A stretch of DNA of 30,772 bases from a virus. The position numbers and the translations under genes are program-made. The notes beneath the pieces are model-generated. The model did not search any database. It worked only from the letters and a program-made list of their open reading frames with translations, and was not told the origin of the DNA. The stretch covers positions 1 through 30,772 of the IMG/VR virus record IMGVR_UViG_3300046524_000364, one strand, 5' to 3'. Shown in pieces: positions 8,104-30,752 of the stretch; position 1 is the stretch's first letter; each line of letters begins with the position of its first letter.

Positions 8104-8105
8104 AT

Positions 8106-8845: not shown

Positions 8846-10314
8846 CCATCGGAATGGATACGATTCCTGGTGCCGGCGCGCTTCGCAAGCCTGGTGTCTA
8901 CAGCGAGATCGACAACAGCAAGGCGGTGCGCGGCCCTCAGCCGGTCAGCTACCGTCGCCTGCTGATTGGTCAGAAGCTGGCAGCCGGCGCTGCCGCTGCC
9001 AACACCCTGATCCGCATCACCAGCCCGGCCCAGGCAGACGTTCAGTTCGGGAAGGGCTCGATGCTGGCTGGCATGGTCCGCGCGGCGATGGCGATCGATA
9101 CCTACACCGAGCTGCAGGTTCTCCCGGTTGTCGACAATGCCGCAGGGGTAGCTGCTGCTGCCACCCTGGCGTTCACTGGTCCTGCCACCGCATCCGGAAC
9201 CATCGAGCTGATGATTGCCGGCCGCCGCGTCTCTGTTGGTGTGATCAGTGCCGACACCGCCACCGTGATCGCGGCATCTGTGGTCGCTGCGATCACCGCC
9301 GCCGATGATATGCCTGTAACCGCCACGGCTGCCACGGGCACCGTCACGCTGACCAGCCGCCACAAAGGCGAGGCCGGCAACAGCTTGAACGCCCGTGTGA
9401 ACTACTACACCGGCCAGGTTCTGCCGTCCGGTGTCGCGGTCACCATCAGCGCGTTCACCGGGGGCTCTGGAAACCCTGACCTGGGTTCGGCACTGGCGGC
9501 TCTGGGTGATGAGTGGTTCCAGGTATGGGGGCTGGCATATACCGACGCCGCAACACTGGCGACGGTGAAGACTGAGCTGAACAGCCGATTTGCCTGGGAT
9601 CGTGAAATCGAGGCCCACGCCTTCACAGCGGCTCGAGGCACTCAAGGCTCCCTCGGGGCCCTTGGCGACAGCCACAACAGTCAGCACCTGGTCATCATGA
9701 TGGCCAACGACGAGCCGATGCCGACCTACGAGAAGGCCTCCGAGACCATGGCGATTGCCGCTCTGTACGCCGCCATCGACCCGGCCCGCCCGATACAGAA
9801 TTTGAACTATGCGTGGTGCTTGGCTCCCGCTACCGCGGACAAGCTCACGAACCAGGAGCGCAACCTCCTGCTGTTTGACGGTATCGCGACCAGCAAGGTG
9901 AGCAACGACGGCACCATGGTTGTTGAGCGCCTGATCACCACCTACAAAACCAACACCGCCGGCGGCCCTGACATCAGCTACCTGGACAGCGAAACGCTCT
10001 TCACCCTGATGTACATCCGTCACGACTGGCGCGACTACATCCAGCGCAAGTACCCGAGGAGCAAGCTGGCAGACGACGGCACGCGCTACGGCTTTGGTCA
10101 GTCAGTTGTTACTCCTGTGGTTATGAAGGGCGAGGCCATTTCAAAATTCAGGGAATGGGAACGCCTGGGCCTGGTGGAAAACATGGCCGACTTCAAGGCG
10201 AATCTAATCATGGAACGCGATGTTAGCGATCCTAACCGCCTCAACGACTTACTGCCGCCTGACCTGGTCAACCAGTTGCGAATCGTGGGCAGCAAAATTC
10301 AGTTCCGCCTGTAA
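8842..10314 (+). CDS. Contractile tail sheath protein (Mu gpL-like)
   Basis: Forms the contractile outer sheath that drives the tube through the host envelope. It has 490 residues, the size of Mu gpL (495). Diagnostic segments are the N-terminal RKPGVYSEIDNSKAVRG, PQPVSYRRLLIGQ, a variable Ala/Thr-rich central domain (about residues 110-200), the block around SETMAIAALYAAIDPARPIQNLNY, and the conserved C-terminal core LETLFTL-like segment (DSETLFTLMYIRHDW), which ends in QLRIVGSKIQFRL. The presence of this gene shows that the virion is a myovirus even though its head genes are lambda-like. It is followed after 23 bases by the tube gene with a CAGGAGAAA ribosome-binding site. Confidence 0.94.
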   Translation: MTIGMDTIPGAGALRKPGVYSEIDNSKAVRGPQPVSYRRLLIGQKLAAGAAAANTLIRITSPAQADVQFGKGSMLAGMVRAAMAIDTYTELQVLPVVDNAAGVAAAATLAFTGPATASGTIELMIAGRRVSVGVISADTATVIAASVVAAITAADDMPVTATAATGTVTLTSRHKGEAGNSLNARVNYYTGQVLPSGVAVTISAFTGGSGNPDLGSALAALGDEWFQVWGLAYTDAATLATVKTELNSRFAWDREIEAHAFTAARGTQGSLGALGDSHNSQHLVIMMANDEPMPTYEKASETMAIAALYAAIDPARPIQNLNYAWCLAPATADKLTNQERNLLLFDGIATSKVSNDGTMVVERLITTYKTNTAGGPDISYLDSETLFTLMYIRHDWRDYIQRKYPRSKLADDGTRYGFGQSVVTPVVMKGEAISKFREWERLGLVENMADFKANLIMERDVSDPNRLNDLLPPDLVNQLRIVGSKIQFRL

Positions 10315-10337
10315 CGGCGATTGCCAGGAGAAAGAAC

Positions 10338-10706
10338 ATGGCAGGAAAAAACCGTATTGGCGGACTCATCGCCTTGAAGGTCAACGGCGACATTTACTTC
10401 GCCAAGGGCGCTTTCACTTACAACCTCGGCAAGCCCAAGCGCGAAGGCGTGGTTGGCTCCGACGTTGTCCACGGCTACAAGGAAACCCCTCAGATTCCAT
10501 TTATTGAGGGTGAGATCACCGATCGCAACGAGCTGAGTCTTGAAGACCTGGTCACGCTCGATGACGCAACCATCACGCTGGAACTCGCCAACGGCAAGGT
10601 CATCACCCTGAGTGAGGCCTGGTACGCAGGCGAGGGAACCGGCAACACCGAAGAGGGCAACATCGCTTGCCGCTTTGAAGGCATCTCTGCCGAGGAAATC
10701 TCGTAA
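10338..10706 (+). CDS. Tail tube protein (Mu gpM-like)
   Basis: Major inner tube protein, 122 residues, directly downstream of the sheath gene as in Mu (gpL-gpM). The sequence is beta-rich and contains the gpM-type phrases GLIALKVNGDIYFAKGAFTY near the N-terminus, VHGYKETPQIPFIEGEITDR in the middle and LANGKVITLSEAWYAGEG near the end. A strong Shine-Dalgarno (CAGGAGAA) lies about 8 bases before ATG. It shares one base with the downstream chaperone gene. Confidence 0.88.
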   Translation: MAGKNRIGGLIALKVNGDIYFAKGAFTYNLGKPKREGVVGSDVVHGYKETPQIPFIEGEITDRNELSLEDLVTLDDATITLELANGKVITLSEAWYAGEGTGNTEEGNIACRFEGISAEEIS

Positions 10707-11008
10707 TGGCAAAGGAAAAAACGGTTCAACTCGCCGAGCAAATCACGTTCGGTAAGGACACGTTCACCGAGCTGACCGTGACCCGCAAGCTGAAATACCT
10801 GCGCGGCCATGCGTTGCGTATCACTTCGGATGGCAAGGGCAATGGCGGCGCGGACATGGACTTCGCCACCCTGATTGACCTCGGGGCCAAGATGGTTGGC
10901 CATCCTCCTGCGTTGCTCGACGAGCTGAGCGAGGACGATCAAGCCGCCGTCATCGGCGAGGCCCGGGATTTTTTGCTGAAGCACCTCGGGGGTGGGAAGG
11001 AGGCGTAA
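10706..11008 (+). CDS. Tail assembly chaperone (Mu gp41/P2 gpE-like)
   Basis: A 100-residue protein of the gp41/E/14 chaperone group that coats the tape measure during tail assembly. The pattern TVQLAEQITFGKDTFTELTVTRKLKYLRGHAL at the N-terminus followed by a helical C-terminal half (DFATLIDLGAKMVGHPPALLDEL) fits. The gene lies between the tube and tape measure genes, where such chaperones are nearly always found. Near the 3' end the sequence TTTTTTG (10969-10975) is in the right phase for -1 slippage into a downstream frame that stays open to 11133. Confidence 0.85.
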   Translation: MAKEKTVQLAEQITFGKDTFTELTVTRKLKYLRGHALRITSDGKGNGGADMDFATLIDLGAKMVGHPPALLDELSEDDQAAVIGEARDFLLKHLGGGKEA

Positions 11009-11133
11009 CCGTCGTCGTCAAAGTTATGAGCGTTCAGCCGTCGGAAGTCATGGAAATGGATTTCGACGAGCTGAATTGGTGGCTTGAGCGCACCGAGGAG
11101 TGGGTTGGATGGCAGACAAAGGATACTCCCTAA
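10976..11133 (+). CDS. Probable -1 frameshift extension of the tail chaperone (P2 E'/Mu gp42-like)
   Basis: Slippage on T TTT TTG at 10969-10975 would move ribosomes from the chaperone frame into the -1 frame, which is open without stops to TAA at 11131-11133 and adds about 53 residues. The added part contains [20 protein letters not shown], similar in style to the short E' extension of P2 and equivalent tail-chaperone extensions. An ATG at 11026 lies in the same frame but has no good Shine-Dalgarno at the right distance (AAGGAGG at 10997-11003 is 22 bases away). The frame overlaps the tape measure start by 25 bases. Use of the frameshift is inferred from phase, location and family habit. Confidence 0.68.
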
Positions 11134-12794
11134 ACGTCATCATCGCGGCCGTGGACAAGATCACCGCGCCGTTGCGTGGGATATTCGGCAAGGTCAAAGC
11201 GGCGAGCGCTGGAATTGCAGGTGCGCTTGATCGTACCGGCCTGCCGATTTTCGCGAACAGCCTGAAGAACGTAGGCGGTGCGATCGGCGGCGTGGGTAGT
11301 GCGGTTGCTTCAAGCACCCGGAAGCTGCTGGGGCTTGGGGCCACGCTGGGAATCACAGGCGCTGCGCTGAACATGTTTTTCCAGGGTTTCGCTGATGCAA
11401 CGGGCGCAATTGGTGATACTGCCGAGCGTACCGGCATCAGCCGCGAGCGATTCCAGGAGCTCAGCTTTGCAGCGAAGCTCAGCGGATCGTCAGCGGAAAC
11501 ACTGGGCGGTGCGCTGCAGAAGATGCAAATCAACATCGGCGCAGCAACGGCGGGCTCGAAAGAGCTTTCGCAAATGTTCAAAGGCCTGGGCATCAATATC
11601 AAGGATTCGTCCGGCAAGCTGAAAAGCTCAGATGCTTTGTTCGACACCTTCGTTGATCGAATCTCGAAGATCAAAGACCCGTCCCTACAAGCGCAGGCGG
11701 CGGTGAAGATCTTCGGCAAGAGTGCCACTGAGCTACTGCCGCTGATCCGCGGCGGCAGTGCGGGGCTCAAGGAAATGTCAGACGAGGCCCGCCGCCTCGG
11801 CGTAGTAATTTCTGACAGCGCCGTTCGTGAAGGTGAGGATTTCGGAGATACGCTTGACACGATTCATGCGGCACTCGGCGGTGTCAGCAATAGCATCGGA
11901 AGCTCCTTGGTTCCTCAGCTGAATATTCTGGGCAAGCGGTTGATCGAGACGATCGTCAAGTACCGCCCCCAGATTGAAGCATTCGCCACGGCTTTCGCCG
12001 AAAACCTGCCTGGAAACATCGAGCGAGTCACCGGATTTCTTGGTGACCTGTACGACGGTGTCCAGCCGGTGATCGAGATATTCAGCTCGCTTTCCGACAC
12101 CTTCGGCGCGGCCAACCTGATATTCACGGCGCTCGGGTTGTACATCGGCGGCGGCCTCCTGATGGCGGTGCTGAACCTGGCGCTGGCCCTGAAGGGGCTC
12201 GGTTTGGCTATCACTCTAACGCCGGTCGGCTGGTTCCTGGCTGCCATCGTGGCCATCGGCGCCGCGGCCTATGTCATCTACAAGAACTGGGACAACATCG
12301 TTGGGTTCTTCGAGGACAAATGGGCGGGCGTCAAAGCGGCCTTCAGTGACGGAATAGTCAACGGTATCTGGAAGCTGTGGAAGGAATACAACCCCATCAC
12401 TTTGATGATGGAAGGCTTCAACGGCCTGATTAAGTACCTGACAGGCTGGGACCTGGGCGCAATCCTCGGTAGCAAGATCACCGAGGCTGTTGCCGCCATC
12501 AAGAACGGATTGCCCGATTGGGCCAAGAAGTTACTTGGGATTGACGGTGGCGGTGTCACCGCCGGGGGGGAGGGCGGTTCGCCGTCGGCTGCCACCGGCG
12601 GTGCTGACACAGACTTGGGCCGTCGGGCTGCGCAAATCGGCCGGGATGCCGTCCAGCAGTTGGCCCCACCTGAGCAAGCGGTACGGGTGCAGGTAGACCT
12701 CAACAACGTTCCAGCAGGGTCCAAGGTGAAAACCGAGGGCAGCCAGGGAGCGACATTCGATACCGACATCGGCTACTCGATGATGGCCCCGTAA
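11109..12794 (+). CDS. Tail tape measure protein
   Basis: Sets tail length, occupies the tube lumen and is ejected before the DNA. The protein of 561 residues is short for the family, implying a short tail. Signatures of the phage tape-measure (PhageMin_Tail-type) group are present: [20 protein letters not shown] at the N-terminus, repeated Gly/Ala-rich helices, the [20 protein letters not shown] segment (about 115-135), and the SDALFDTF ... [20 protein letters not shown] region (about 178-220). Hydrophobic membrane-like segments lie around residues 335-360 ([21 protein letters not shown]) and 370-395. The frame opens at GTG 11100, but ATG 11109 has GAGGAG eight bases upstream and was chosen. 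The C-terminus carries a Gly-rich linker. Confidence 0.92.
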
Positions 12795-12806
12795 CCGGAG
12801 TTCCCT

Positions 12807-14057
12807 ATGGCTTGGCGAGACAACTACCGCGCCGCGACTTTTCGCGGCGTGGGTTTTTTTGTGGCTACGGCAGATAGCAGTCATGGCCGGCGCCAGGCAG
12901 TTCACGAGACAGCACAGCGGGATGTTCCCTATACCGAAGACCTGGGTCGAAAGTCTCGGGAGTTCGGTATCACCGGTTACCTGCTGGGCAAGGAATACGA
13001 TGTAGCCCGTGAAGAGCTGATCAAGGTCTGCGAACAAGCCGGCCCTGGCGTGTTGGTTCACCCGTACCGTGGTGAGCTGACAGTTGTCTGCCGAGGGCTC
13101 ACCGTTAGCGAGTCTTCTGACGAGGGCGGCAAATGCACGCTCTCCATGACGTTCCTCGAGGCGGGCGAAGCGTCCTACCCGTCGGCCAAGGTCGACAGCG
13201 TAAACGCGATCAGCGCCAAGGCTGGCGAGGTCACTGAGGCTGGCAAAGAAAACTTTGTTGCTGACTTCCTCACGAAGGGTTACCCGTCTTTCGTGGCTGA
13301 GGCGGCGACCACACAAATTAAGGGCCTCAGCGATTTTCTAAGCTCGCCTGAGTTCATTGTTTCAAGCGACATACAGGCAGTGTCCGACTACTACGACAAG
13401 GTCAAAGGCATCGGGTCTGACGCGTTCAATCTGATCCAGGCGCCGTTCGAGTTTGCCGGCCAGGTGGTCGACGCGATCAGCAGCATCCGCTCAGCCTTCG
13501 GCGGCAGCGCTTTCGGGATGCTGATGAGCCTGTACAACCAGTATTTCCCAAGCGACGAAAATACACCCTCGGCGGGCACCCCAAGCCGGCAGCAGGTCGT
13601 GAAAAATACAAGTGCCGTTTCCGCTCTGGTGCGTCAGGTAGCCATTTCCGAAGCGGCTGTAGCGGCTGTCGTCACGCAGACGACAGAGGACGTTTCTAAT
13701 GGCGGTACGAAAACCACCTCCGAGCCAACAAAATACGACAGCTACGAAGCGGCCATTGCGGTACGCACTGAGCTTGCCGATCGGCTGGACGAGGAGGGCG
13801 AGACGACCAGCAGTGATCCGGTCTATGTCGCGGTGACAGATCTCAGGACAGTAGTGGTACAGGCCGTTCCGGATCCCGAGCAGGACTTGCCAAGGCTGGC
13901 GACATTCTCACCGAGGCAGACGCTGCCTTCCTTGCTCGTCGCTTATCAGCTCTACGGCGACGCCAGCAGGGCTGACGACATCGTGTTGCGCAACGATCCC
14001 CGCCGCCCCGGCTTTCTGATTGGCGGGCAACCGCTTGAGGTTCTGGCAAATGGATGA
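12807..14057 (+). CDS. DNA circularisation/tail protein gpN (Mu gpN-like)
   Basis: A 416-residue protein of the Mu gpN (DNA_circ_N) family, part of the baseplate/tail tip; the circularisation name is historical. The N-terminal domain is clear: WRDNYRAATFRGVGFFV, then GRRQAVHETAQRDVPYTEDLGRK, REFGITGYLLGKEYD and the PGVLVHPYRGELTVVCRG segment (about residues 85-105). The middle is helical and variable. The C-terminus, with SLLVAYQLYGDASRADDIV and NDPRRPGFLIGGQPLEVL, looks like a LysM-like or hub-contacting segment. It follows the tape measure after 12 bases with GGAG before ATG and overlaps the gpP start by eight bases. Confidence 0.9.
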   Translation: MAWRDNYRAATFRGVGFFVATADSSHGRRQAVHETAQRDVPYTEDLGRKSREFGITGYLLGKEYDVAREELIKVCEQAGPGVLVHPYRGELTVVCRGLTVSESSDEGGKCTLSMTFLEAGEASYPSAKVDSVNAISAKAGEVTEAGKENFVADFLTKGYPSFVAEAATTQIKGLSDFLSSPEFIVSSDIQAVSDYYDKVKGIGSDAFNLIQAPFEFAGQVVDAISSIRSAFGGSAFGMLMSLYNQYFPSDENTPSAGTPSRQQVVKNTSAVSALVRQVAISEAAVAAVVTQTTEDVSNGGTKTTSEPTKYDSYEAAIAVRTELADRLDEEGETTSSDPVYVAVTDLRTVVVQAVPDPEQDLPRLATFSPRQTLPSLLVAYQLYGDASRADDIVLRNDPRRPGFLIGGQPLEVLANG

Positions 14058-15168
14058 CCTTGAGCTGCTGGTCAATGGGATGAACTATGCGGGATGGACC
14101 CAGATCGGGGTCACGCGGGCAGTGGATGCTTCCTCCGGCGCGTTCACGGTGACGCTGACAGAGCGCTGGGAAGGGCAAGAGGGTCGGGGCGCTCAAGTCG
14201 AACCCTGGCCGATTCTCCCGGGCGACAAGTGCGAGGTTCGTCTTGGCGGCATCACGATGGTGATCGGCTATGTCGACATCTTCAAGCCTTCCTTCAGCGC
14301 CAATGACCACACCATCAATATTCAAGGGCGAGACCGAACGTCGGACCTGATCGACTGTAGTGCCGTGCACACCCCTGACGAGTGGAAAAACATCGACCTG
14401 CTGCGCTTTGCCCAGGTACTGGCGAAGCCATTCGGCGTGGGGGTTTCGGCTGATGTCTCGGTGGGGGAGCCATTCTCTGTGTGCAAGCTGCAGCAGGGCG
14501 AAACCGCATTCGAGGCAATCGCGCGCTACGCCAAGCAGAGACGCCTGTTGCTGACGACGGATCGCGCCGGCGGCTTACTTATCACCCGTGCGGGCAATAA
14601 GCGCGCATCGGTTGGCTTGGTGCAGGGCGAAAACATCCTCAGCGCCTCAGGCAGCATCGATCATAGCCAGCGGTTCCGCAATTACCTGGTCAAGGGGCAG
14701 GCTGCATACAACCCCTACAGCGAGGGCGCAACAGAGGCGCATATCGAAGGCGGCGCCACCGACAGCGGGATCACTCGCTACCGACCCATGCTTATCGTTG
14801 CTGAGGCTGGAGGATCGAATGCCAGCGCACAGGAGCGGGCCACTTGGGAGGCAAACAGCCGGCTTGGCAAGTCGGCATCAGCTTCCATTACCGTTCAGGG
14901 CTGGCGCCAAACACCGGGCGGCCCTCTTTGGGAGCCCGGAATGTTGGTTCAGGTCAAGTCCCCGTGGTTGCGCATGGACGGGCAAATGATTATCCGCCAG
15001 GCCACCTACGAGCGGGGCGAGGGCGGTACCACAACGAAACTCGACATCGTGAGCCCCCAGGCCTTCTCGCCAGAACCCCCAGACTCCAAAAAAGGGAAGA
15101 GTGGCAAGAAAGGCGGACGGAACATTTGGGCGGAAGCCATCGGGGAAGAGGACAAAAAAGATGGTTAA
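14050..15168 (+). CDS. Baseplate hub protein gpP (Mu gp44-like)
   Basis: Central hub of the baseplate, joining tube and spike; 372 residues from the chosen start, the size of Mu gpP (379). Typical segments are DLELLVNGMNYAGWTQIGV at the start, FTVTLTERW, PWPILPGDKCEVRLGG, VIGYVDIFKPSFSANDHTI and GRDRTSDLIDCS, followed by a GETAFEAIARYAKQRRLLL helix (about 155-175). The frame is open from TTG 14020, but ATG 14050 is preceded by GAGG at a good distance and was preferred. The C-terminal 30 residues are Lys/Gly-rich. It overlaps the next gene by eight bases. Confidence 0.88.
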   Translation: MDDLELLVNGMNYAGWTQIGVTRAVDASSGAFTVTLTERWEGQEGRGAQVEPWPILPGDKCEVRLGGITMVIGYVDIFKPSFSANDHTINIQGRDRTSDLIDCSAVHTPDEWKNIDLLRFAQVLAKPFGVGVSADVSVGEPFSVCKLQQGETAFEAIARYAKQRRLLLTTDRAGGLLITRAGNKRASVGLVQGENILSASGSIDHSQRFRNYLVKGQAAYNPYSEGATEAHIEGGATDSGITRYRPMLIVAEAGGSNASAQERATWEANSRLGKSASASITVQGWRQTPGGPLWEPGMLVQVKSPWLRMDGQMIIRQATYERGEGGTTTKLDIVSPQAFSPEPPDSKKGKSGKKGGRNIWAEAIGEEDKKDG

Positions 15169-15694
15169 CCCACTTCGCGACCTCACCAGCCGCGTGATGA
15201 TGATGTTTGGTCGGGGCGTCCTGCGCGGCGTCAACGATGCGAATGGCCGGCAACAGTTGCAGGTTGAACTGTTGAAAGGTGAGTTGCGCGATGGTGTCGA
15301 ACACATGCAGAACTACGGTTTCACCAGCCACCCAACCGGCGGTGATGTGGCGGCGGCTTCGATTGGAGGGAACCGAGAGCAGATCATCGTGCTGGTGGTA
15401 GATGACCGCCGATATCGGATCCCGTTGCAGGCCGGTGAGGTCGCCATGTACGACGACCAGGGCAACAAAATCGAATTGCTGCGCGACATGGTGAAGGTCA
15501 CGGCCGTTCAGCATGCGGAGGTAAAGGCCCCGACAATCAAGTTGATCGGTGAGATTGAGTTGGTCGGCAACGTGAAGATTCAGGGGAACATTGATTCCAA
15601 CGGCACAGTTACAAACAAGGGGAAAAACATCGGCAGCACCCACCAGCATGACGGGGTGTTGGTCGGATCCGCAAACACGGGAGCGCCCATTTAA
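15161..15694 (+). CDS. Baseplate assembly protein V / central spike (Mu gp45-like)
   Basis: Cell-puncturing spike at the tip of the tail, 177 residues. An OB-fold-like N-terminal region (about residues 15-95, with LQVELLKGELRDGVEHMQNYGF and a QAGEVAMYDDQGN loop) is followed by a repetitive beta stretch (APTIKLIGEIELVGNVKIQG) typical of a trimeric beta-helix. The motif HQHDG near the end corresponds to the His-X-His tip that binds an iron ion in Mu gp45 and P2 gpV. The end GSANTGAPI resembles the family's apex. ATG 15161 was chosen over an upstream in-frame start at 15101 because it gives the normal N-terminus and has GGGGAAGAGG upstream. Confidence 0.9.
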   Translation: MVNPLRDLTSRVMMMFGRGVLRGVNDANGRQQLQVELLKGELRDGVEHMQNYGFTSHPTGGDVAAASIGGNREQIIVLVVDDRRYRIPLQAGEVAMYDDQGNKIELLRDMVKVTAVQHAEVKAPTIKLIGEIELVGNVKIQGNIDSNGTVTNKGKNIGSTHQHDGVLVGSANTGAPI

Positions 15695-16161
15695 TGGCCG
15701 ATGCCGCAATGGTGATGACTGAGTTCGGCGGAGACCTGGTGCTTTTCGGTTTCGACCTTGAGCGCGATGACGGATTGGAGACGGCTGTGATCATCAGCCT
15801 ATTTACCGACCGCCGGGCGAGTGCAGAGCAGATCCCCCCAGAGAACGAGCAGGACGACCTGCGCGGTTACTGGGGCGACATCAACAACGCTTCCGCGACC
15901 GACCAAACAGGGTCCCTGCTTTGGTTACTTGCGCGAGAAAAACAACTGCCGCAAACGCTGAGTCGCGCCGAGCAATATTGCCGCGAGGCCTTGGCCTGGA
16001 TGATTGATGACGTGGTGGCCACGAAGATCGAAGTCACCGCTTCGTACTACTCGCAAGGCGTGATGCTGCTGGAAACCGGTATCTACCGGCCCGACGGCTC
16101 CGTCGTCCGCTATCGATACAACTATGAATGGTCGGCCCAGGCCGGCAAGAGGGCGGCCTGA
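15694..16161 (+). CDS. Baseplate protein gp46 (Mu gp46-like)
   Basis: A 155-residue protein of the phage GP46 family, comparable to the P2 gpW/T4 gp25 baseplate wedge component. Visible family features are the TAVIISLFTDRRAS strand-helix, PPENEQDDLRGYWGD, and GSLLWLLAREKQLPQTLSRA, then REALAWMIDDVVATKIEVTA and a C-terminal strand GSVVRYRYNYEWSAQ. It shares one base with the spike gene and one with gp47, consistent with coupled translation of the baseplate block. Confidence 0.9.
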   Translation: MADAAMVMTEFGGDLVLFGFDLERDDGLETAVIISLFTDRRASAEQIPPENEQDDLRGYWGDINNASATDQTGSLLWLLAREKQLPQTLSRAEQYCREALAWMIDDVVATKIEVTASYYSQGVMLLETGIYRPDGSVVRYRYNYEWSAQAGKRAA

Positions 16162-17222
16162 TGCCATTTGTTCGACCAACATTACCGGAACTCATTGACC
16201 GGGTTACTACCGACATTAGCGGCCGAGTCACGGGCGTTCAAAGCGCCGTGCTTCGCCGATCGTTACTCGGCATCATCGGCAGGTCCGAAGCCGGCGCTGT
16301 GCACATGCTCTACGGCTTCCTTGAATGGGCCGCCAAGCAAGCAATCATCGACACTGCTGAGAAGGAATACCTCGAGCGGTGGGCGGCGATCTGGAAGGTG
16401 TTCCGCAAGGCTGCGGATTACTCGACTGGGCCCGCGTTGTTGCTTGGTGCGGTTGGCTCAACGGTGCCGGCCGGAACGATTCTCCAGCGACAAGACGGCG
16501 TGCAGTACCGGGTCTTGGCTGATGGAGTTTTCACCGGTGCCACGCTGCAGCCTGAGATTGTGGCGGTTGATGCTGGCGCCAATGGTGATGCGCCGGCGGG
16601 CACCCCGCTGTTTCTTTTATCGCCCGTGGCTGGGGTGCAATCAACTGGCTCGGCGGCCGCTGATATTGACGGTGGGCTTGATGTTGAGACCGACCCGCAG
16701 TTGCTCAATCGCCTGCTTAAGAGAATTCGGCAGCCCCCTCACGGCGGCGCCTCTTCAGATTATGAGCTTTGGGCGCTCGAAGTGGCTGGCGTTACCCGGG
16801 TGTGGGTTTATCCGCTCCAGATGGGCGCGGGCACTGTGACGGTGCTGTTCGTCTGTGACGGAGAGTCGAACATCATTCCGGATGCCGCCAAGGTAGCAGA
16901 GGTGCAGTCCTACATTAACGAGCGAGCACCCGTAACAGCTGAAGTGTTTGTTGCTGCGCCGGTTCCGGATCCGTTGGACATGGCAGTGAAGCTTTCCCCT
17001 AACACCGCTGTCGTCCAGGCAGCAGTACGAGCCGAGGTTGCCGACCTTATTGTTCGAGACGCGAAGCCTGGCAGCCCGACGCTGATAAGCCGATTGCGCG
17101 AGGCCGTCTCCATAGCTGCTGGCGAATCCGATAACGCCATCACGTCCCCGACGGCAGACGTTGCTCACGCAACCGGGCATATGGCGGTTCCGGGCACCAT
17201 TACTTTCTCCAGCTTCACATAA
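16161..17222 (+). CDS. Baseplate J-like protein gp47 (Mu gp47-like)
   Basis: Main wedge protein of the baseplate, 353 residues from ATG 16161, matching Mu gp47 (360) and the baseplate J family. The N-terminus RPTLPELIDRVTTDISGRV, the helix RSEAGAVHMLYGFLEWAAKQ, the ADGVFTGATLQPEIVAVDAGANGD region (about 115-150) and the G-L-D-V-E-T-D-P segment followed by LKRIRQPPHGGASSDYELWA (about 185-205) are characteristic. An upstream in-frame start at 16128 was rejected because ATG 16161 overlaps the gp46 stop by the standard ATGA-like junction (TGATG). It is followed nine bases later by gp48. Confidence 0.92.
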   Translation: MPFVRPTLPELIDRVTTDISGRVTGVQSAVLRRSLLGIIGRSEAGAVHMLYGFLEWAAKQAIIDTAEKEYLERWAAIWKVFRKAADYSTGPALLLGAVGSTVPAGTILQRQDGVQYRVLADGVFTGATLQPEIVAVDAGANGDAPAGTPLFLLSPVAGVQSTGSAAADIDGGLDVETDPQLLNRLLKRIRQPPHGGASSDYELWALEVAGVTRVWVYPLQMGAGTVTVLFVCDGESNIIPDAAKVAEVQSYINERAPVTAEVFVAAPVPDPLDMAVKLSPNTAVVQAAVRAEVADLIVRDAKPGSPTLISRLREAVSIAAGESDNAITSPTADVAHATGHMAVPGTITFSSFT

Positions 17223-17231
17223 GGAGGCGAA

Positions 17232-17822
17232 ATGCCAACAGCTGCCGACTACCTGGAGCAGCTGAAAACGCTGCTGCCTCCTGGCCAGGCCTTCCCTCGT
17301 GAAGCCGGCACCACGCTTCACAGCCTACTTGATGGGATGTCGATTGAACTGGCGCGAGTAGATGCCCGTGGCGAAGCGCTGCCCCTGGAGGCGATCCCTT
17401 CCAGCTCCAGCGAGCTGCTGGTTGACTGGGAGCGGGTCGCCGGTCTGCCCGACAAGTGCTCTGGTGTACTGGAGGAAACGCTGCAAGGACGGAAGAACGT
17501 TTTGCTGGCAAAGCTTTCAAGCACGGGCGGCCAGTCCGCCCCTTATTTCATTGAGTTGGCGGACTCTCTCGGCTATGTCGTAACCATTGAGCAATTCCGG
17601 CCTTTCCGAGTTGGGCTCTCCCGGGTAGGTGACGCACTCACCAACGGCGACTGGGTATTTGCCTGGCGAATAAAGGCGCCTGCCGTGACCGTAACAAGTT
17701 TCCGCGTCGGCCAGTCAGCAGTGGGCGAGCGCCTGCGCACATGGGGCAATGACACCCTCGAATGCAAAATAAATCAATTGAAGCCCGCGCACACCATCGC
17801 GCTCTTCGCCTACGGAGATTAA
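17232..17822 (+). CDS. Baseplate/tail protein gp48 (DUF2313, YmfQ-like)
   Basis: A 196-residue protein of the DUF2313 (Mu gp48) family that joins wedge to tail fibre. The N-terminus TAADYLEQLKTLLPPGQAFPR is diagnostic, followed by LHSLLDGMSIELARVDARGE, LVDWERVAGLPDKCSG and the RKNVLLAKLSSTGGQSAPYF segment (about 85-105). A C-terminal domain carries two Cys-poor beta segments ending in KPAHTIALFAYGD. An AAGGAGG Shine-Dalgarno lies seven bases before ATG. The fibre gene begins three bases after its stop. Confidence 0.92.
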   Translation: MPTAADYLEQLKTLLPPGQAFPREAGTTLHSLLDGMSIELARVDARGEALPLEAIPSSSSELLVDWERVAGLPDKCSGVLEETLQGRKNVLLAKLSSTGGQSAPYFIELADSLGYVVTIEQFRPFRVGLSRVGDALTNGDWVFAWRIKAPAVTVTSFRVGQSAVGERLRTWGNDTLECKINQLKPAHTIALFAYGD

Positions 17823-17825
17823 CGC

Positions 17826-18941
17826 ATGCACAGAATTGATGGGCCAGGGGCGACGCCTGAGAATATGTTTACTGACGGCGATCCAGTCGCTGGCACTCCA
17901 GCCACCGTGGTCACGGATGACTTCATGAATGATGTTCAGGAAGAACTCATCGGCCTGTTGACTGCCGCCGGCATAACGCCGGTGAAGGGCACCCAAGACC
18001 AAGTGCTGAAGTCGCTGGCAAAGCTACTTCAGGTTCAGAAGCTCACCGCTTTTCCTGCGGCGGGCACCGCAACTGCACTGACCTTGGCACCGAGCCCCGC
18101 CATTGATGGGTACGAGGCAAACCAGAGCTTTCGAGTCAAGTTCAGCCTTGCAAGTGGCGCAAACCCTACTCTGAACGTTTCCGGGAAAGGGGCCAAGGCT
18201 CTGAAGCAGTACGACTCGACTGGCGCCAAGGTGGCGGCTTTGTTTGCGGCGGGCCAACTGTCTCTGGTCGAATATGATGGCGTCGACTGGGTTCTGCTTG
18301 ATCAGCTACCAGCTGCGTCAGATCTTTTCAATACTGCACGGGTCGATGTGGCATCCGCTGGAACAGTAAATCTGACTACTGCCGCCCCATCTACTCGCCA
18401 CATTAATATCACTGGGTCGACGACGATTTCTGGTTTCACTGTTGCAGCAGGGCAGTGCTATTTCGTGAGGTTTGACGGGGCACTGCAGCTTACCAACAGC
18501 GCTACCCTAGTGACCCAGTCTGGAGGAAACATCCTCACTCAGGCTGGCGACACTTGCATGCTCCGCGCTACATCTGCCAACAGTGTTGAGGTCCTCTGCT
18601 ACACCAGGTCCCCCAAGAGCGGTTGTACTGCCTGGGTGTCTTGGAACGGCACTGGCACCGTTGCTGTGCGGGATAGCTACAACGTTTCCAGCATCACCGA
18701 TAATGGCGTTGGCGATTTTACCGTGAACTTAGCTACGCCAATGACAAATGCTAACTACAGCTTTACCTATACAGTTGGTGGAGTCGGTAACGTGATGAAC
18801 ATGGCCAGCGGCGCCTTAGTCGCTCCAACGGTTTCTGCTCTTCGAGTTACTAGTGTGAGCGCTGCCGGCACCGGTACAGGCGCGAACTTCAATATGACGG
18901 ACTTCCCAATTAACAATGTTCAGATATTTGGAGGGAAATAA
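17826..18941 (+). CDS. Tail fibre protein
   Basis: Receptor-binding fibre, 371 residues. The N-terminal part is conserved in Pseudomonas fibres (RIDGPGATPENMFTDGDPVAG, then TVVTDDFMNDVQEELIGLL and GTQDQVLKSLAKLL) and attaches to the baseplate. A beta-repeat region (about residues 80-160) holds the phrase SLASGANPTLNVSGKGAKAL. The C-terminal part from about 170 is Thr/Ser/Asn/Val-rich, with no collar-domain His motif that I can identify, and is probably the host-specific tip. The end (PINNVQIFGGK) is short for a fibre, so this phage likely has short fibres. It shares one base with the following small gene. Confidence 0.88.
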   Translation: MHRIDGPGATPENMFTDGDPVAGTPATVVTDDFMNDVQEELIGLLTAAGITPVKGTQDQVLKSLAKLLQVQKLTAFPAAGTATALTLAPSPAIDGYEANQSFRVKFSLASGANPTLNVSGKGAKALKQYDSTGAKVAALFAAGQLSLVEYDGVDWVLLDQLPAASDLFNTARVDVASAGTVNLTTAAPSTRHINITGSTTISGFTVAAGQCYFVRFDGALQLTNSATLVTQSGGNILTQAGDTCMLRATSANSVEVLCYTRSPKSGCTAWVSWNGTGTVAVRDSYNVSSITDNGVGDFTVNLATPMTNANYSFTYTVGGVGNVMNMASGALVAPTVSALRVTSVSAAGTGTGANFNMTDFPINNVQIFGGK

Positions 18942-19174
18942 TGGCTAAGCGGATTGTGTATCAGTTGCTGGGTGATCCGGTTGCATCTATGACGCCATGT
19001 GAGTGTGGCCTGACCATCACGCAGATCGGGATCAAGGACGTTCCCGTTGGTGTTTCCTTCTGGATCGTGGACGAGTCGATGATCCCCCTTGATCCTGATG
19101 AACGATTGGAGTGGGTGCTCGATAAGGACCAGTTGGGAAGTCCGTCCGGGGTTGGCGGGAGCGAAGAAACCTAG
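18941..19174 (+). CDS. Small protein downstream of the fibre (possible fibre assembly partner)
   Basis: A 77-residue protein whose start overlaps the fibre stop (TAATG), so it is translated with the fibre. I do not recognise a named family. The sequence is acidic with short beta stretches (KRIVYQLLGDPVASM, then VPVGVSFWIVDESMIPLD) and a Ser/Gly tail. The phrases IKDVPVGVSFWIVD and LDPDERLEWVLD recall small proteins coded after fibres in Pseudomonas phages; a chaperone role is only suggested by position. Confidence 0.7.
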   Translation: MAKRIVYQLLGDPVASMTPCECGLTITQIGIKDVPVGVSFWIVDESMIPLDPDERLEWVLDKDQLGSPSGVGGSEET

Positions 19175-19196
19175 TCCTCAACCATCGAATGCCGAT

Positions 19197-19217
19197 ACCG
19201 CTCCACGCGGTTTTTTT
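19197..19217 (+). terminator. Terminator between fibre block and endolysin
   Basis: A 5-bp stem (ACCGC at 19197-19201 and GCGGT at 19207-19211) with a five-base loop is followed directly by seven T. It lies 23 bases after the small fibre-linked gene and 17 bases before the endolysin start. The short stem suggests incomplete termination. Confidence 0.6.
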
Positions 19218-19233
19218 GTGCCCGGAGAAAGCC

Positions 19234-19767
19234 ATGCCGATTACCGAGCAGCAGTTGCTGCAGATCCTCCCGAACGCCGGCCGCAATGCCGGCGTTTTTG
19301 TTCCTGTGCTGAATGCCGCCATGGGCAAGTACGGGATTGTCACGCGCCCGCGTATCGCGGCGTTCATCGCCCAGGTCGGGCACGAGTCGGGCCAGTTGCG
19401 CTACGTGCGCGAGATTTGGGGGCCGACGGCGCAACAGGCAGGTTACGAGGGGCGCGCTGACCTGGGCAACAAAGTTCCGGGTGACGGCTTCAAGTACCGT
19501 GGCCGGGGCCTTATCCAGATCACCGGCCGGGCGAACTATGCGGCGTGCGGTGAAGCGCTGGGCCTGGACCTGGTCAATCAACCCACGCTGCTGGAGCAGC
19601 CGCAGTACGCCGCGATGTCGGCGGCCTGGTTCTGGTCTACCCGTGGCTTGAACACCCTGGCAGATCAAGGACAGTTCGCGAAGATCACCCGGCGCATCAA
19701 TGGTGGGCTCACCGGCCAGGACGACCGCCAAGCGCTGTACGACAAGGCGCTGAAGGTTTTACCGTGA
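19234..19767 (+). CDS. Endolysin, glycoside hydrolase family 19 (chitinase-like)
   Basis: Cleaves peptidoglycan glycan strands at the end of infection. The 177-residue protein has the GH19 lysozyme pattern: the catalytic Glu in IAQVGHESGQLRYVRE, the segment GNKVPGDGFKYRGRGLIQITGRANY (with the F-K-Y-R-G-R-G-L-I-Q-I-T-G core, about 80-100) and the C-terminal RRINGGLTGQDDR. There is no signal peptide, so release needs a holin, which is not in the window. The frame is open from ATG 19189, but ATG 19234 has GGAGAAAG just upstream and gives the family N-terminus (PITEQQLLQILPNA). The gene is last in the plus-strand block. Confidence 0.92.
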   Translation: MPITEQQLLQILPNAGRNAGVFVPVLNAAMGKYGIVTRPRIAAFIAQVGHESGQLRYVREIWGPTAQQAGYEGRADLGNKVPGDGFKYRGRGLIQITGRANYAACGEALGLDLVNQPTLLEQPQYAAMSAAWFWSTRGLNTLADQGQFAKITRRINGGLTGQDDRQALYDKALKVLP

Positions 19768-20117: not shown

Positions 20118-20348
20118 TCAGTCAATTTTTAGCATCTGTGCGAGCAGCGGATCATTCGATCCCAGGATTGCGGCCTGTACATCGACGAAATACATCCCTC
20201 CTGTTATCTCGCCGATGATCTCGCCTTCTTCAATCCATTTCTTCAACTGCTGCAGACTTGGTTTATTGCCGATATATCGCAGCTTTCGATACTCACCGAC
20301 TTCCATGAGCCTCGGCAGTTTTACGGTTATTTGGGACAGGATTTTCAT
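20118..20348 (-). CDS. Excisionase-like small DNA-binding protein
   Basis: A 76-residue protein with a winged-helix-like segment: LPRLMEVGEYRKLRYIGNK, then PSLQQLKKWIEEGEIIGEI and TGGMYFVDVQ. The pattern of a recognition helix (KKWIEEGEI) followed by a short wing and a Y-V-D strand is that of Xis/MerR-type recombination directionality factors. It overlaps the stronger Xis gene upstream by four bases (ATGA), so the two are translated together. A second DNA-binding partner or a small regulator is equally possible. Confidence 0.65.
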   Translation of the reverse strand: MKILSQITVKLPRLMEVGEYRKLRYIGNKPSLQQLKKWIEEGEIIGEITGGMYFVDVQAAILGSNDPLLAQMLKID

Positions 20349-20584
20349 AATTCGATGGCTCGTCGAGCTGCTTCTACTCTTTCGATGAGAGTACTGCCGG
20401 TAGTTCTTCTCACAAGCTTCTCGGGTTCTTGGTACTGCGAATTCGCATCTACGTAGTAATTACGCCCGTGCTTGATAGGTTTAGGTGTAATGCGGCCTTC
20501 GCGGGCCCATTTGCGCAGGGTATTCGGGCTAGGCGGCGTTTTAAAGTGGTCAGCAGCCCATTCTGCGAGAGTCAATTTGGTCAT
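20345..20584 (-). CDS. Excisionase (lambda Xis-like)
   Basis: A 79-residue protein that should bend attP DNA and direct the integrase to excision. The N-terminus LTLAEWAADHFKTPPSPNTLR aligns by eye with the lambda Xis start (LTLQEWNARQRRPRSLETVR), followed by KWAREGRITPKPIKHGRNYYVD, which matches the RWVRESRIFPPPVKDGREY segment. The C-terminus is basic and helical. The frame extends to 20599, but ATG 20584 has AGGTG about seven bases upstream and gives the family start. It lies downstream of DUF4224, a neighbour usually found next to integrase genes. Confidence 0.85.
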   Translation of the reverse strand: MTKLTLAEWAADHFKTPPSPNTLRKWAREGRITPKPIKHGRNYYVDANSQYQEPEKLVRRTTGSTLIERVEAARRAIEL

Positions 20585-20616
20585 GAGTTCACCTGCCATT
20601 AGGCTAATGTCGGCCG

Positions 20617-24148: not shown

Positions 24149-24150
24149 GG

Positions 24151-25892: not shown

Positions 25893-26121
25893 ATCCTTTC
25901 CTTGAAATGGCGGGCAGAGAATTCTGCGCCAAGCCGAGGTTCTTACGGATTCATCAGATTTTGCAATACCTCCTTGGTATGGAGTTGCGGCAACTCGCGC
26001 AAAACCTACGCTGCAAGCCACGGCTTTACGTTTGCATAAGCACAAAAAAGCAGTTGCTTTGCCCCTGCCTGAATGCCCTGTTATCCTTTTAAAACAGTTA
26101 CTTAGATGGATAAAGTCCCCA

Positions 26122-26168
26122 GCATGGGGTGCTAGGGGTCGAGTGTTCGAATCACTCCGTCCCGACCA
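26122..26168 (+). other. attR: 3' fragment of tRNA-Pro(GGG)
   Basis: The sequence runs from the anticodon loop (ATGGGGT at 26124-26130, anticodon GGG) through the variable loop, a perfect T-arm (GAGTG TTCGAAT CACTC, 26141-26157) and the 3' acceptor strand CGTCCCG with A and CCA (ending 26168). The 5' half is absent: the required CGGGACG acceptor strand is not in the 90 bases upstream. This is the usual relic of integration at a tRNA 3' end, with the complete gene restored at the other end of the prophage. The exact core limits need the left end. Confidence 0.85.
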
Positions 26169-26176
26169 TATAATTC

Positions 26177-26216
26177 AAAGGGTTGCGAGATTTTATCTCG
26201 CGACCCTTTTTTATTT
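26177..26216 (+). terminator. Native tRNA-Pro terminator at attR
   Basis: A 14-bp stem (AAAGGGTTGCGAGA at 26177-26190 paired with TCTCGCGACCCTTT at 26196-26209, one G-T pair) with a five-base loop and a run of T. Nine bases after the tRNA CCA end, it is the expected tRNA terminator and marks host DNA on this side. Confidence 0.88.
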
Positions 26217-26303
26217 TTGGTCGTTTTTACCCCTGCAAAACCACCGGCTCTGGGTGGAATCCTCACGGCTTCCGCGTGGGGGGACGCAGGCTTTGGCGCT
26301 CAG

Positions 26304-26738
26304 CCAAACTTCATAAGTTCGAATGTAGGTGATGTTGGTGACCCAAACCTTATGGGGTTCCACGATATCAAACGGGCGCCTCAGCAAATTGGGTGAGGCG
26401 ACCGCTGGCTTACCACCGTACTTGCCAGGGCGGGGTCGATAACCTATCTGAGAACGCAGACCTTCAAGACGCATCAGCCTCGCCACACGATGACGACCAC
26501 AATCCTCAACTACCTCGCGCGGATCGTCATGGATTTTGCGATAGCCATAAACGCCGCAGCTCTCCAGCCAGGAATGCTTGATCAAACCCAGTAATCGCTG
26601 ATCGTCTTTAGCGCGTGCAGATTGCGGCTCAGACAGCCAGGCGTAATAAACGCTGGGATGGACTTTCAGCGTCAGGCAAAGCCGTCGAATGGAATAGTCG
26701 TCCGCGCGCTGCTTGATAAAGGCGTACTTTAGCCGCAC
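26304..26738 (-). pseudogene. IS3-family transposase orfB, truncated
   Basis: Homology to IS3-family orfB runs from the start (RLKYAFIKQRADDYSIRRLC) through SCGVYGYRKIHDDPREVVED and RVARLMRLEGLRSQIGYRPR to VWVTNITYIRTYEVW, about 145 residues of some 280. The catalytic core is therefore lost. The first acidic residue of the DDE triad, normally D in the T-D-I-T-Y motif, is N here (residue 135). Past about 26304 the frame continues to 26211 but no longer looks like transposase. Confidence 0.85.
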
Positions 26739-27547: not shown

Positions 27548-28357
27548 TCAGCTCAATTTAAATAACCCATCTACGACTACAGTTTCTGCTAGTCGCTTAC
27601 GAAGGTCGGCATCTATAGCCTCGTCGTCAGGGCGATAAAGACGTACACGCTTATATGCTTCAATGCGATTAATCTCTTTCCCTAAATAGTCCCACACTAC
27701 CCTGGAGCAAGCGGGGGTGCGCTGATCTCCAGATGAAACGCCTATTTTCAATCCGTTAAGTCGTGTGACGCGGCTTTTATAACTGGGTACGATTATTGTT
27801 TGAGTTATTTCATTTGAAGTAAGGGTTTCATAGTCTACGAGGAAGAAACGTCCCTTTAGGCTATATGCCACGCCTTGGTAGGAGTAACGATCACCGTCAT
27901 CACTTTTAATGCTAAAGTTCTGAAGTCTTTCATTGCGGGTATAAATATAGCTTTCGGCCTCTTCTCTAAGGTGAATCAATGAGCAGAGATAATGACCTGG
28001 CGACGACATCGAGTGATAATATTCGTGATAGTAGCCTACGTACTCTCCAATATCATCGGAAGATTGTTTTTGTAAGTGGTCAAATATTTTTTGCGCCACC
28101 GTTTTACTTTCTGACGATTTTCTAGAGTTGGTGCCAGCAATTATCTCGCTGAATTTTTCGGTAGGTAAGTTAATTTCAAATTCTTCCACGCCAAAAAAAT
28201 CACAAATTCGTTTAAAATTATACGGAGATGGTACGCTTTGCCCATTTAAGTATTTATTGAATTGTGCTCGATTGATGTCCAGGCGGCGGCAAACATCAGC
28301 AATTGACGCGTAGTGCTTGCACAACAACTGCAGGTTTACTGGTAAGGAGTCACTCAT
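27548..28357 (-). CDS. HTH (XRE/Cro-CI type) transcriptional regulator
   Basis: A 269-residue protein with an N-terminal helix-turn-helix (residues about 8-60: LQLLCKHYASIADVCRRLDIN, then RAQFNKYLNGQSVPSPYNFKR and ICDFFGVEEF). The rest is a mixed alpha/beta domain of about 190 residues with YSYQGVAYSLKGRFFLVDYE and a PACSRVVWDYLGKEI segment, possibly ligand-binding; I cannot name the domain. ATG 28357 is preceded by GGAG nine bases upstream. Longer frames to 28462 would run through the repeats at 28375-28413 and are less likely. It is divergent from the symporter gene, so it probably controls symporter and racemase. Confidence 0.8.
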   Translation of the reverse strand: MSDSLPVNLQLLCKHYASIADVCRRLDINRAQFNKYLNGQSVPSPYNFKRICDFFGVEEFEINLPTEKFSEIIAGTNSRKSSESKTVAQKIFDHLQKQSSDDIGEYVGYYHEYYHSMSSPGHYLCSLIHLREEAESYIYTRNERLQNFSIKSDDGDRYSYQGVAYSLKGRFFLVDYETLTSNEITQTIIVPSYKSRVTRLNGLKIGVSSGDQRTPACSRVVWDYLGKEINRIEAYKRVRLYRPDDEAIDADLRKRLAETVVVDGLFKLS

Positions 28358-28374
28358 GTTGCCGCTCTCCGAAG

Positions 28375-28413
28375 TGGCGCTATTTGGCGCTAGTGTCGCA
28401 TCATATAGCGCCA
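28375..28413. promoter_or_regulatory. Probable operator: three TGGCGCTA elements
   Basis: TGGCGCTA occurs at 28375-28382 and 28385-28392 as direct copies exactly ten bases apart, and as the inverse TAGCGCCA at 28406-28413. The first and third copies form a 9-bp inverted repeat (TGGCGCTAT and ATAGCGCCA). The elements lie in the 185-base gap between the divergent regulator and symporter genes. Confidence 0.6.
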
Positions 28414-28542
28414 TCTTCAAGCAGGCAGCGAAATTGAAGTTGTCACGCCGTTTGGTCAACATGTTAGTCGCAGGCCGGAAGCATAACGCGCTCCAGTTCC
28501 ACTTGGGTTCTCTACCAAAAAATAATTAGCGAGGACACTCCT

Positions 28543-30021
28543 ATGCTTGAATTAATCAACAATTTTCTATCAGGAACGTTACTCATATTGCTTGTCATTG
28601 GGCTTGGAGGTTATTTCACGATCCGCTCGAGGTTCGTCCAAGTTCGATACTTCTTGCATATGTTTGCCGTATTTAAACGTAGTCTCGGCAGCAGCGTTGG
28701 ACACCTCAGCTCATTTCAAGCGTTGATGCTAAGTCTTGCCGGTCGAGTCGGGGCGGGAAATATTGCTGGAGTGGGAGTGGCGATTACGCTCGGTGGCCCT
28801 GGCGCAGTTTTTTGGATGTGGGTGGCCGCATTCATCGGAATGTCCAGTAGCTTCTTTGAGTGTACGCTGGCTCAGCTTTATAAACGCTGTGATTCCGAAG
28901 GTATGTACCGCGGCGGGCCATCCTATTACATACAATATGGCTTGGGTAAACGATGGCTCGGTATGATTATGGCCGTTTTTATCCTGGTAACATTCAGTTT
29001 TGCTTTCAACGCGGTTCAATCTCATGCGGTTACGCACTCACTAAATAATGCTTTTGGTATAAGCGTTGACTATACCGGATTTGTTTTAGCTGTCTTGGTA
29101 GGAGTAGTGTTTGTTGGTGGTATCAAGCGAATTGCGCGGGTCGCTGATCTGCTAGTTCCTATAAAGACTTTGACCTATGTAGCTATCACTATATACGTGA
29201 TAGTTGTACAGTTTGATCATGTGCCTCTCATGTTGTTGACCATTGTCAAAAGCGCGTTCGGCTTGGATCAAACCTTCGCTGGAATGATTGGTGCCGCAAT
29301 AGTAATGGGTGTAAAGCGAGGTGTTTTTGCAAACGAAGCAGGTCTAGGTAGTGCGCCAAACGTCGCTGCTGTAGCTCAGGTGAAACATCCAGTTGCCCAG
29401 GGTGTTGTTCAAGCATTCAGCGTGTTCTTGGATACGTTCGTCATATGCACTTGCACTGCGTTGCTTATTCTCCTTTCGGGTATTTATGCTCCGGGATTTG
29501 AGGGGGATGGGCTGGTGCTCGCTCAAAACGCTCTCGCGGCTGTGGTAGGTGATTGGGGACGCATGTTTATCAGTGTTGCTCTAGCGCTATTCGTTTTTAC
29601 TTCAATACTTTATAACTACTACCTCGGTGAGAATAGCCTGCGCTATCTGCTGGGTGAGAATAAGAAGGCTGTAGCTGTATTTCGCGGACTTGTTCTTGTA
29701 CTGATTTTTTGGGGCGGAGTGGAAAATCTAAGTGCGGTATTCGCTTTTGCAGATATAACCATGACGCTGGCCGCTTTGGTCAATCTCACTGCAATGGTAT
29801 TACTGTTTAAAGTTTGTATGCGTGTGCTCAACGATTACGATAGCCAACGTTCGATGGGTATTGCCGTGCCGGTATTTGATTCAAGCAAATTTGATGATCT
29901 CGATCTGGATTTGAATGCTTGGCCCAACGATATGAGGTCGTCACTACCCGCAACTGCTGGGACTACTCAGGTGAAAGATACATCTCGCACTTTGGATATA
30001 GCAATGGATAAGGCTAAATGA
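28543..30021 (+). CDS. Alanine/glycine:cation symporter, AGCS family
   Basis: Sodium-coupled uptake of alanine or glycine through the inner membrane. The 492 residues have the AGCS pattern: GGYFTIRSRFVQVRYF, SSFQALMLSLAGRVGAGNIA with GVGVAITLGGPGAVFWMWVA (about residues 57-95), SSFFECTLAQLYK, YRGGPSYYIQYGLG, and FANEAGLGSAPNVAAVA (about 262-280). About ten hydrophobic segments can be counted. In the GNIAGV motif R replaces the usual T of G-T-V-G. The last 60 residues are acidic and cytoplasmic. GAGG precedes ATG by about eight bases. It overlaps the racemase by four bases, so the two form one operon under the divergent regulator. Confidence 0.93.
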   Translation: MLELINNFLSGTLLILLVIGLGGYFTIRSRFVQVRYFLHMFAVFKRSLGSSVGHLSSFQALMLSLAGRVGAGNIAGVGVAITLGGPGAVFWMWVAAFIGMSSSFFECTLAQLYKRCDSEGMYRGGPSYYIQYGLGKRWLGMIMAVFILVTFSFAFNAVQSHAVTHSLNNAFGISVDYTGFVLAVLVGVVFVGGIKRIARVADLLVPIKTLTYVAITIYVIVVQFDHVPLMLLTIVKSAFGLDQTFAGMIGAAIVMGVKRGVFANEAGLGSAPNVAAVAQVKHPVAQGVVQAFSVFLDTFVICTCTALLILLSGIYAPGFEGDGLVLAQNALAAVVGDWGRMFISVALALFVFTSILYNYYLGENSLRYLLGENKKAVAVFRGLVLVLIFWGGVENLSAVFAFADITMTLAALVNLTAMVLLFKVCMRVLNDYDSQRSMGIAVPVFDSSKFDDLDLDLNAWPNDMRSSLPATAGTTQVKDTSRTLDIAMDKAK

Positions 30022-30752
30022 CGATCACTAATAGAAACTACGTTGAAAAACCTAAACTTGGCATTATTACAGGTTCAGGCCCGGAGGCGGGTATGGATAT
30101 GTGGGCTAAGTTACTCCAGGAAAATCGGCGTCGTATGGGCTCGGCATTCAGGGGTGACTTGGACGCTACCCCGGTCGTCATAGTTTCTGATCCAGAGCTT
30201 GGTTTATCCATGGAGTTAGAGTTAACTGAGCGCCAGGTGTGGTCGGCATTGCTCGATGATATTTATCAGTTGGATGGGCGGGTCAGCGCTTTCAGTATTG
30301 CCTGCAATACTCTGAATTTATTTGCCGATAGAATTGGTGGTTTGGATTTGAAAAGCAAATTCATATCCTTCTATGACGTGCTAGAGGGATATTTTCGGAG
30401 GGCAGGGATTAGCAATGCCTGCCTATTAGGTTCTCGCCCAGTGGCCGAGCTTGGATCGTGGTCACCCTATAGATCATTAGCAGATGTTATGGACCTTGAA
30501 CCAGTACCAGACACCCAAGAATTACACCAGTTGATTTATGATATTAAAACGCTTGGTTCTCAAGACGCGAGCCTTCGACCGCGATTCAGAGAGTTGTTAG
30601 CGCGCATCCAGGTGGATACCGTGATTTTGGCCTGTACTGAGCTTCCACTCATTTCGGACATTTCGACCGATAAGCATTTATTAGACGTAACGCAGCTCGT
30701 CGTTGAGGCGATGCTGGATTACTCTGCAGTAGAAGAAGTTGAGTGCGACTGA
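30018..30752 (+). CDS. Aspartate/glutamate racemase family protein
   Basis: A 244-residue cytoplasmic enzyme that would interconvert L- and D-aspartate or glutamate (or a related substrate) by a two-base, two-Cys mechanism. The N-terminal GIITGSGPEAGMDMWAKLLQ and the two Cys motifs are present: FSIACNTLN near residue 95 and ILACTELPLI near 202. The fold is alpha/beta with two similar halves. The gene overlaps the symporter stop by four bases (ATGA), suggesting the symporter imports an amino acid the racemase acts on. Exact substrate cannot be read from the sequence. Confidence 0.88.
   Translation: MTITNRNYVEKPKLGIITGSGPEAGMDMWAKLLQENRRRMGSAFRGDLDATPVVIVSDPELGLSMELELTERQVWSALLDDIYQLDGRVSAFSIACNTLNLFADRIGGLDLKSKFISFYDVLEGYFRRAGISNACLLGSRPVAELGSWSPYRSLADVMDLEPVPDTQELHQLIYDIKTLGSQDASLRPRFRELLARIQVDTVILACTELPLISDISTDKHLLDVTQLVVEAMLDYSAVEEVECD

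Follow-up and report, generated by a model that had tools for sequence, protein, structure and literature searches.

Introduction

Islands inserted in tRNA genes carry a recognizable signature, which the portions of the Islander work drawn on here give as an intact tRNA gene at one end, a displaced 3' fragment of it at the other, an integrase inside, and the same orientation for both tRNA parts (PMC4383910). Within those portions, an anticodon-centred class accounts for 2083 islands (PMC4383910). For Pseudomonas fluorescens Pf-5, the part of the genome report used here places prophage 04, a 13.5-kb remnant with a putative integrase, beside tRNA-Pro(1) (PMC2647930).

The locus described here is of the same kind as the tRNA-gene islands of Islander, as far as those portions characterize them, although the window, i.e. 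the whole stretch of 30,772 nucleotides that was analysed, shows the fragment end only (PMC4383910). Its likeness to Pf-5 prophage 04 is one of locus, a prophage and a putative integrase adjoining a Pseudomonas tRNA-Pro, within the part of that report used here (PMC2647930).

The same 3' half of tRNA-Pro is found in Pseudomonas phages phiPSA1 and SC_8_H2H8_2017, where an integrase lies 130-133 nt away from it. On the left side of the core they differ from the window: phiPSA1 is without its type of arm, and SC_8_H2H8_2017 has the 5' tRNA half. The integrase type differs as well, since only PF00589 was found in that of phiPSA1, whereas the type present in a related prophage of genome G035 (hereafter G035-type) combines PF00589 and PF09003. 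Pseudomonas phage VW-6S, which was not found by name in the literature surveyed, has the same P arm (76% identity), followed by the initial 19 nt of the core; its tRNA identity ends after those 19 nt, and an integrase with a PF13356 arm-binding domain reads into the core. The stop codon of that integrase lies within the core (L230, 6120-6145). In VW-6S the integrase module seems to have been replaced at the att site.

We conclude that positions 26121-26169 of the window are almost certainly the attR of a contractile-tail prophage inserted by a lambda-type tyrosine integrase in the tRNA-Pro(GGG) gene of a Pseudomonas. An attR is a well-understood, ordinary kind of insertion mark.

Results

The features of the window are collected in Table 1. 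The core block is identical at 49 of 49 nt to the attR and the attL of the G035 prophage and to the intact tRNA-Pro of genome G005, and such a match to the 3' half of tRNA-Pro(GGG) is far beyond chance. The sequence-only reading had described 26122-26168 as a 3' fragment of this gene, which the match to the intact gene confirms. It had also taken these 47 nt as the direct repeat; the repeat is real, but extends one base further on each side. Likewise, the 5' half, which had been said to be missing, is mostly gone; however, part of the 5' anticodon-stem strand is retained, as the block begins with its AGC, and the remaining 5' part of the gene is absent. The native terminator that had been placed nine bases past the CCA is also real: its hairpin stem starts at the ninth base after the CCA, and the intact tRNA-Pro of G005 is followed by a terminator of the same kind.

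Table 1. Features on both sides of the right junction, in window coordinates
Feature	Position	Strand	Evidence or remark
Head, packaging, contractile tail, fibre and endolysin genes	1121..19767	+	PHROGs and Pfam matches
Excisionase-like gene	20345..20599	-	PF07825, E 3e-30; attR side; DUF4224 ORF adjoining
Last phage-side ORF, 138 aa	25629..26045	-	phrog_33929; overlaps P arm
Phage P arm of attR	25997..26120	+	GCGCAAAAC at 25997-26005, GTTTGCATAAGCACAAAA at 26030-26047
attR core, 49-nt direct-repeat block	26121..26169	+	tRNA-Pro(GGG) 3' half, from AGC of the anticodon stem to CCA+T
Bacterial flank kept from the tRNA-Pro locus (terminator and about 100 nt)	26169..26302	+	76-96% identity to stretches in 40 loci
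Native tRNA-Pro intrinsic terminator, displaced to attR	26177..26209	+	Hairpin -23.4 kcal/mol, z -6.4
Transposase remnant right of the junction	26211..26738	-	phrog_157 transposase, PF13276
HTH regulator (-), Na:Ala symporter (+), Asp/Glu racemase (+)	27548..30752	mixed	Pfam, PHROGs

At this end of the element there is a 3' tRNA fragment and no whole tRNA: ARAGORN found no tRNA in the window, and hence no complete cloverleaf of a functional tRNA gene, and an Rfam scan of the window at gathering thresholds gave no match. The 47-mer 26122-26168 is present as a single copy, on the + strand, in a search of the window that allowed up to 4 mismatches. A second core was sought inside the window near the excisionase-like gene and none was found, the two other matches having 4 mismatches in 17.

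Phage genes stand on one side of the core and bacterial DNA on the other. The phage side includes terminase, portal, head protease/capsid, tail sheath, tape measure, baseplate, fibre and endolysin genes. No integrase was found among the window proteins scanned, including beside the excisionase-like gene, and the left part of the prophage lies outside the record, which comprises 30,772 bases, begins at window base 1 and holds no left neighbour. TorI of KplE1 is a directionality factor placed apart from its integrase, and by analogy may be a parallel for the excisionase-like gene as a separate directionality factor. Phage LESphi3 of P. aeruginosa has a homologue of the window's excisionase-like gene, with 54% identity, that overlaps the integrase gene. 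The accessory segment 19768-26120 has a G+C content of 0.52 and mostly leftward ORFs, among them a YafO-like toxin ORF (22474-22914) and two DUF2388 ORFs. A tblastn comparison of the collected loci (E<=1e-4) with eight proteins of the right end, among them the excisionase-like one, gave matches for ORF 23903-24148 only, in 2 loci; endolysin matches were not tallied.

On the right, the similarity of the flank to the 40 loci, which represent 31 distinct places, ends in every case by 26302 among the matches listed. The transposase remnant next to it is presumably of IS3 type. The HTH matches of the regulator are at or under the Pfam cut-offs, and PHROGs supports the assignment. The G+C content is 0.47 over 27138-30772 versus 0.595 over 1-19767, and that of the symporter is 0.465 versus 0.60-0.62 in 8 sampled relatives. 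Among 80 symporter loci, 4 have a relative of the regulator beside the symporter, and none has a relative of the racemase there. The core, at up to 5 mismatches, was absent from the fetched flanks of all 80 related-symporter loci, some of these flanks being short, and a scan of five right-flank proteins gave no match to a phage integrase family. The cargo right of the junction may be foreign; the position of the junction is unaffected by this.

A complete relative and an unoccupied-type site

Genome G035 holds a related prophage with both ends (C5:41314-82713), 41.4 kb apart, with core copies at 41314 and 82697. Window positions 297-17950 align with it in three pieces at 76-85% DNA identity; its tail sheath gene (C5:54091-55560), between the core copies, is 81% identical to that of the window. 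The stretch 17951-25996 gives no DNA alignment to this prophage, and 25997-26302, which spans the junction, is 84% identical to G035 DNA. Because window base 297 corresponds to about C5:64099, the window would lack roughly 18 kb at the left of a G035-like prophage.

The attR of the G035 prophage has the same arm, core block and terminator as the window. At its attL, ARAGORN identifies an intact tRNA-Pro(GGG). Behind this tRNA come another terminator, GCGCAAAAC in three copies, and an integrase gene in convergent orientation; the matched 3' end of the integrase gene is 139 nt away from the core. The homologue at L309, 99% identical to this integrase, contains PF00589 and PF09003. The other end of the element in G035 has an intact tRNA in the same orientation and a tyrosine integrase beside it, as in the islands of Islander.

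The sequence-only reading had called for comparison with a site free of the prophage. In G005, the genome of L007 (P. fluorescens PS858), the 17-nt core occurs once at up to 1 mismatch, within an intact tRNA-Pro, and the flank directly after this tRNA is 85% identical to that of the window over 94 nt, to window position 26261. By its sequence, G005 looks like an unoccupied tRNA-Pro(GGG) site, in a genome other than the host of the window. The complete relative and this unoccupied-type site together support what had been claimed for the junction, namely an attR that gives the right end and the orientation of the prophage, with tRNA-Pro(GGG) as its target and the native terminator behind it.

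The P arm and its module with the core

We searched for arm and core with the pattern GTTTGCATAA..ACAAAA(60-90)GCATGGGGTGCTAG at an allowed length of 92-122; since it demanded GCATGGGGTGCTAG, shorter cores or earlier stops were invisible to the search. The module was present in 16 of 398 Pseudomonas genomes and at 48 places in viral contigs, while the reversed-pattern control gave 0. Of 65 rows (the 48 viral and 16 genomic ones plus VW-6S), 64 have a module of 106 nt and one has a module of 105; in the window it measures 106 nt. Conservation was assessed on arms of exactly this length with 180 nt upstream, which left 63 distinct arms, the window's included; both GCGCAAAAC and the upstream TGCGCAAAACC are conserved at 90% or more per base across them.

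Beside the integrase, i.e. in the P' arm, GCGCAAAAC recurs 1-3 times in 44 of 44 loci with a core within 600 nt (47 loci match the integrase among the matches listed, several being overlapping copies of one place). In the window it was found once against 0.57 expected, which by count alone is no more than chance. We read these repeats, from their conservation and placement, as candidate arm-type sites of the integrase.

Nine of the 65 arm rows lose their identity to the tRNA within about 19 nt (VW-6S, L234, L235, L242, L245, L261, L265, L272 and L273); L270 loses it later, and in L247 it ends with the contig. Five arm loci (L094, L096, L250, L257 and L258) have a phiPSA1-type integrase 120-133 nt past the core, among the matches listed. 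These two observations imply that the arm is not bound to one right side. VW-6S also raised the idea of a phage that brings no more than 19 nt of the tRNA and would break the gene. We rejected this for the G035 family: nine of 12 loci (L309-L316 and L319) have the full tRNA 3' half together with a lambda-type integrase. The other three are L317, with a phiPSA1-type integrase, L318, with a partial match to one at 789 nt from the core, and L320, with neither.

The tRNA-Pro(GGG) locus in other genomes

Twenty Pseudomonas genomes were reached through symporter loci, and the junction query matched all of them, at one locus each. An intact tRNA-Pro(GGG) was identified by ARAGORN at the matching place in 16 of these 20 loci, and none at the match in L202, L204, L205 and L206. 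Among the 16 genomes with the arm, seven have on one contig and in one orientation an intact tRNA with a G035-type integrase at one end and arm plus core at the other, 17.5-56 kb apart (G177, 42.8 kb; G274, 55.9; G035, 41.4; G055, 51.2; G238, 56.0; G384, 53.5; G227, 17.5). The sequence-only reading had placed the matching intact tRNA gene and the integrase beyond the left edge of the window, and this expectation holds in G035 and the six other paired genomes. A window-like sheath gene lies between the paired ends in G035 only, implying that other kinds of phage also insert here; in G384 a sheath with 89% identity is on a different contig, and G013 has a 40% sheath inside its element.

Two arm genomes, G013 and G166, have the core with a G035-type integrase, then arm plus core, with the tRNA-borne core further out, and look stacked. 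Three core copies stand in a row at one tRNA-Pro(GGG) in each (G013:C1:1903576-1993246, where the integrase types differ, and G166:C12:8011-95544). No same-orientation pair on one contig was identified in the other seven arm genomes (G122, G342, G125, G233, G249, G310 and G041).

G014 (L222, L223 and L224) has three copies of core, terminator and flank with no tRNA found beside them; the copy with the 5' tRNA half is on another contig. We considered from this that the flank might be part of a mobile element, which is disfavoured by the intact tRNA of G005 and by loci such as L123 and L236, where the window's type of terminator is followed by ORFs that include none of the three integrase types sought. 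L184 counts against the chromosomal reading of the flank, since there a terminator of the window's type is followed by an integrase of the G035 family. The terminator by itself is therefore no proof of chromosomal DNA.

Terminators behind the core

In G035, the terminator at attL is of another type than the window's, and attR carries the window's type, so that the native terminator has been displaced to attR. A hairpin of the GCCGATC...GATCGGC type lies between core and integrase in 9 of 9 genome loci with a G035-type integrase. Among the matches listed for viral contigs, it does so in 17 of 28, with 10 unclassified and one, L184, of the window's type. Integrases of the phiPSA1 type are mostly 120-133 nt from the core, behind other hairpins where these were classified (exceptions: L110, L136 and L227).

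Right of attR, three of the seven paired genomes have the window's type of terminator (G035, G238 and G384). G274 and G227 have a hairpin otherwise found before phiPSA1-type integrases, G055 that of the G035-type integrase, and G177 another type.

Discussion

The arrangement suggests the following course of insertion. A lambda-type integrase, presumably encoded together with the prophage's own attL beyond the left edge of the window, would recombine the phage attP with the tRNA gene within the 49 nt common to both and probably at the anticodon, a position that we infer from Islander, from Pf-5 prophage 04 and from how far the common block reaches. The 3' half of the original tRNA would thereby be displaced, together with its terminator, to the right end, the site seen in the window. 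At the left end, the phage copy of the 3' half with a phage-borne terminator would rebuild the tRNA, next to the convergent integrase gene.

A different account concerns what lies to the right. The site could be the internal junction of a stacked array, that is, the right end of the left phage followed by a second, degraded element of low G+C content; in all other respects this agrees with the attR reading. The low G+C content of 27138-30772 and of the symporter would fit, as would the lack of the core (up to 5 mismatches) in the fetched flanks of all 80 symporter loci, the phiPSA1-type integrase after the core in five arm loci (among the matches listed), the hairpins of non-native type right of attR in 4 of the 7 pairs, and the three core copies at the tRNA-Pro locus in G013 and G166. 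However, the right flank starts with sequence that also follows the intact tRNA in G005 (to 26261) and attR in G035 and G384 (to 26302), the five right-flank proteins scanned include no phage integrase family, and the low-G+C cargo could be a later arrival beside the presumed IS3 remnant. We therefore regard a stacked array as possible but rather unlikely here.

That the block is a decayed tRNA pseudogene, or the old attR of a lost element, unrelated to the phage genes of the window, is very improbable. Fragments of this sort do occur, as the three copies of core and flank in G014 without an adjoining intact tRNA illustrate, but the core is free of mutations over 49 nt, the arm is conserved and has its usual length, and in G035 a related phage lies left of the same arm. 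A free phage genome with the block as its attP is scarcely credible, although the record is classed as viral. Bacterial genes stand right of the block, where an integrase was looked for and none found, and a G035-type integrase after the core has another terminator in between at 9 of 9 genome loci and at the 17 viral-contig loci noted above (10 of the 28 being unclassified and one of the window's type, among the 80 stretches listed from a scan that returned at least 120). We thus retain the reading of the block as the attR of an integrated prophage.

The swap of terminators is visible in G035, between attL and attR. It is conceivable, though we hold it as a tentative and rather doubtful generalization, that each integrase family using tRNA-Pro(GGG) brings its own terminator behind the rebuilt 3' half, so that lysogeny would exchange the terminator of the tRNA and send the native one to attR. 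If so, a putative change in the output of tRNA-Pro(GGG), or insulation of the convergent integrase gene, might follow at this locus, where elements stack.

With the attR, a truncated virus record gains a fixed right boundary, an integration target and a predicted type of integrase. The tRNA-Pro(GGG) locus of Pseudomonas is used by at least two integrase families; this changes no principle, and it helps to delimit the prophages at this locus.
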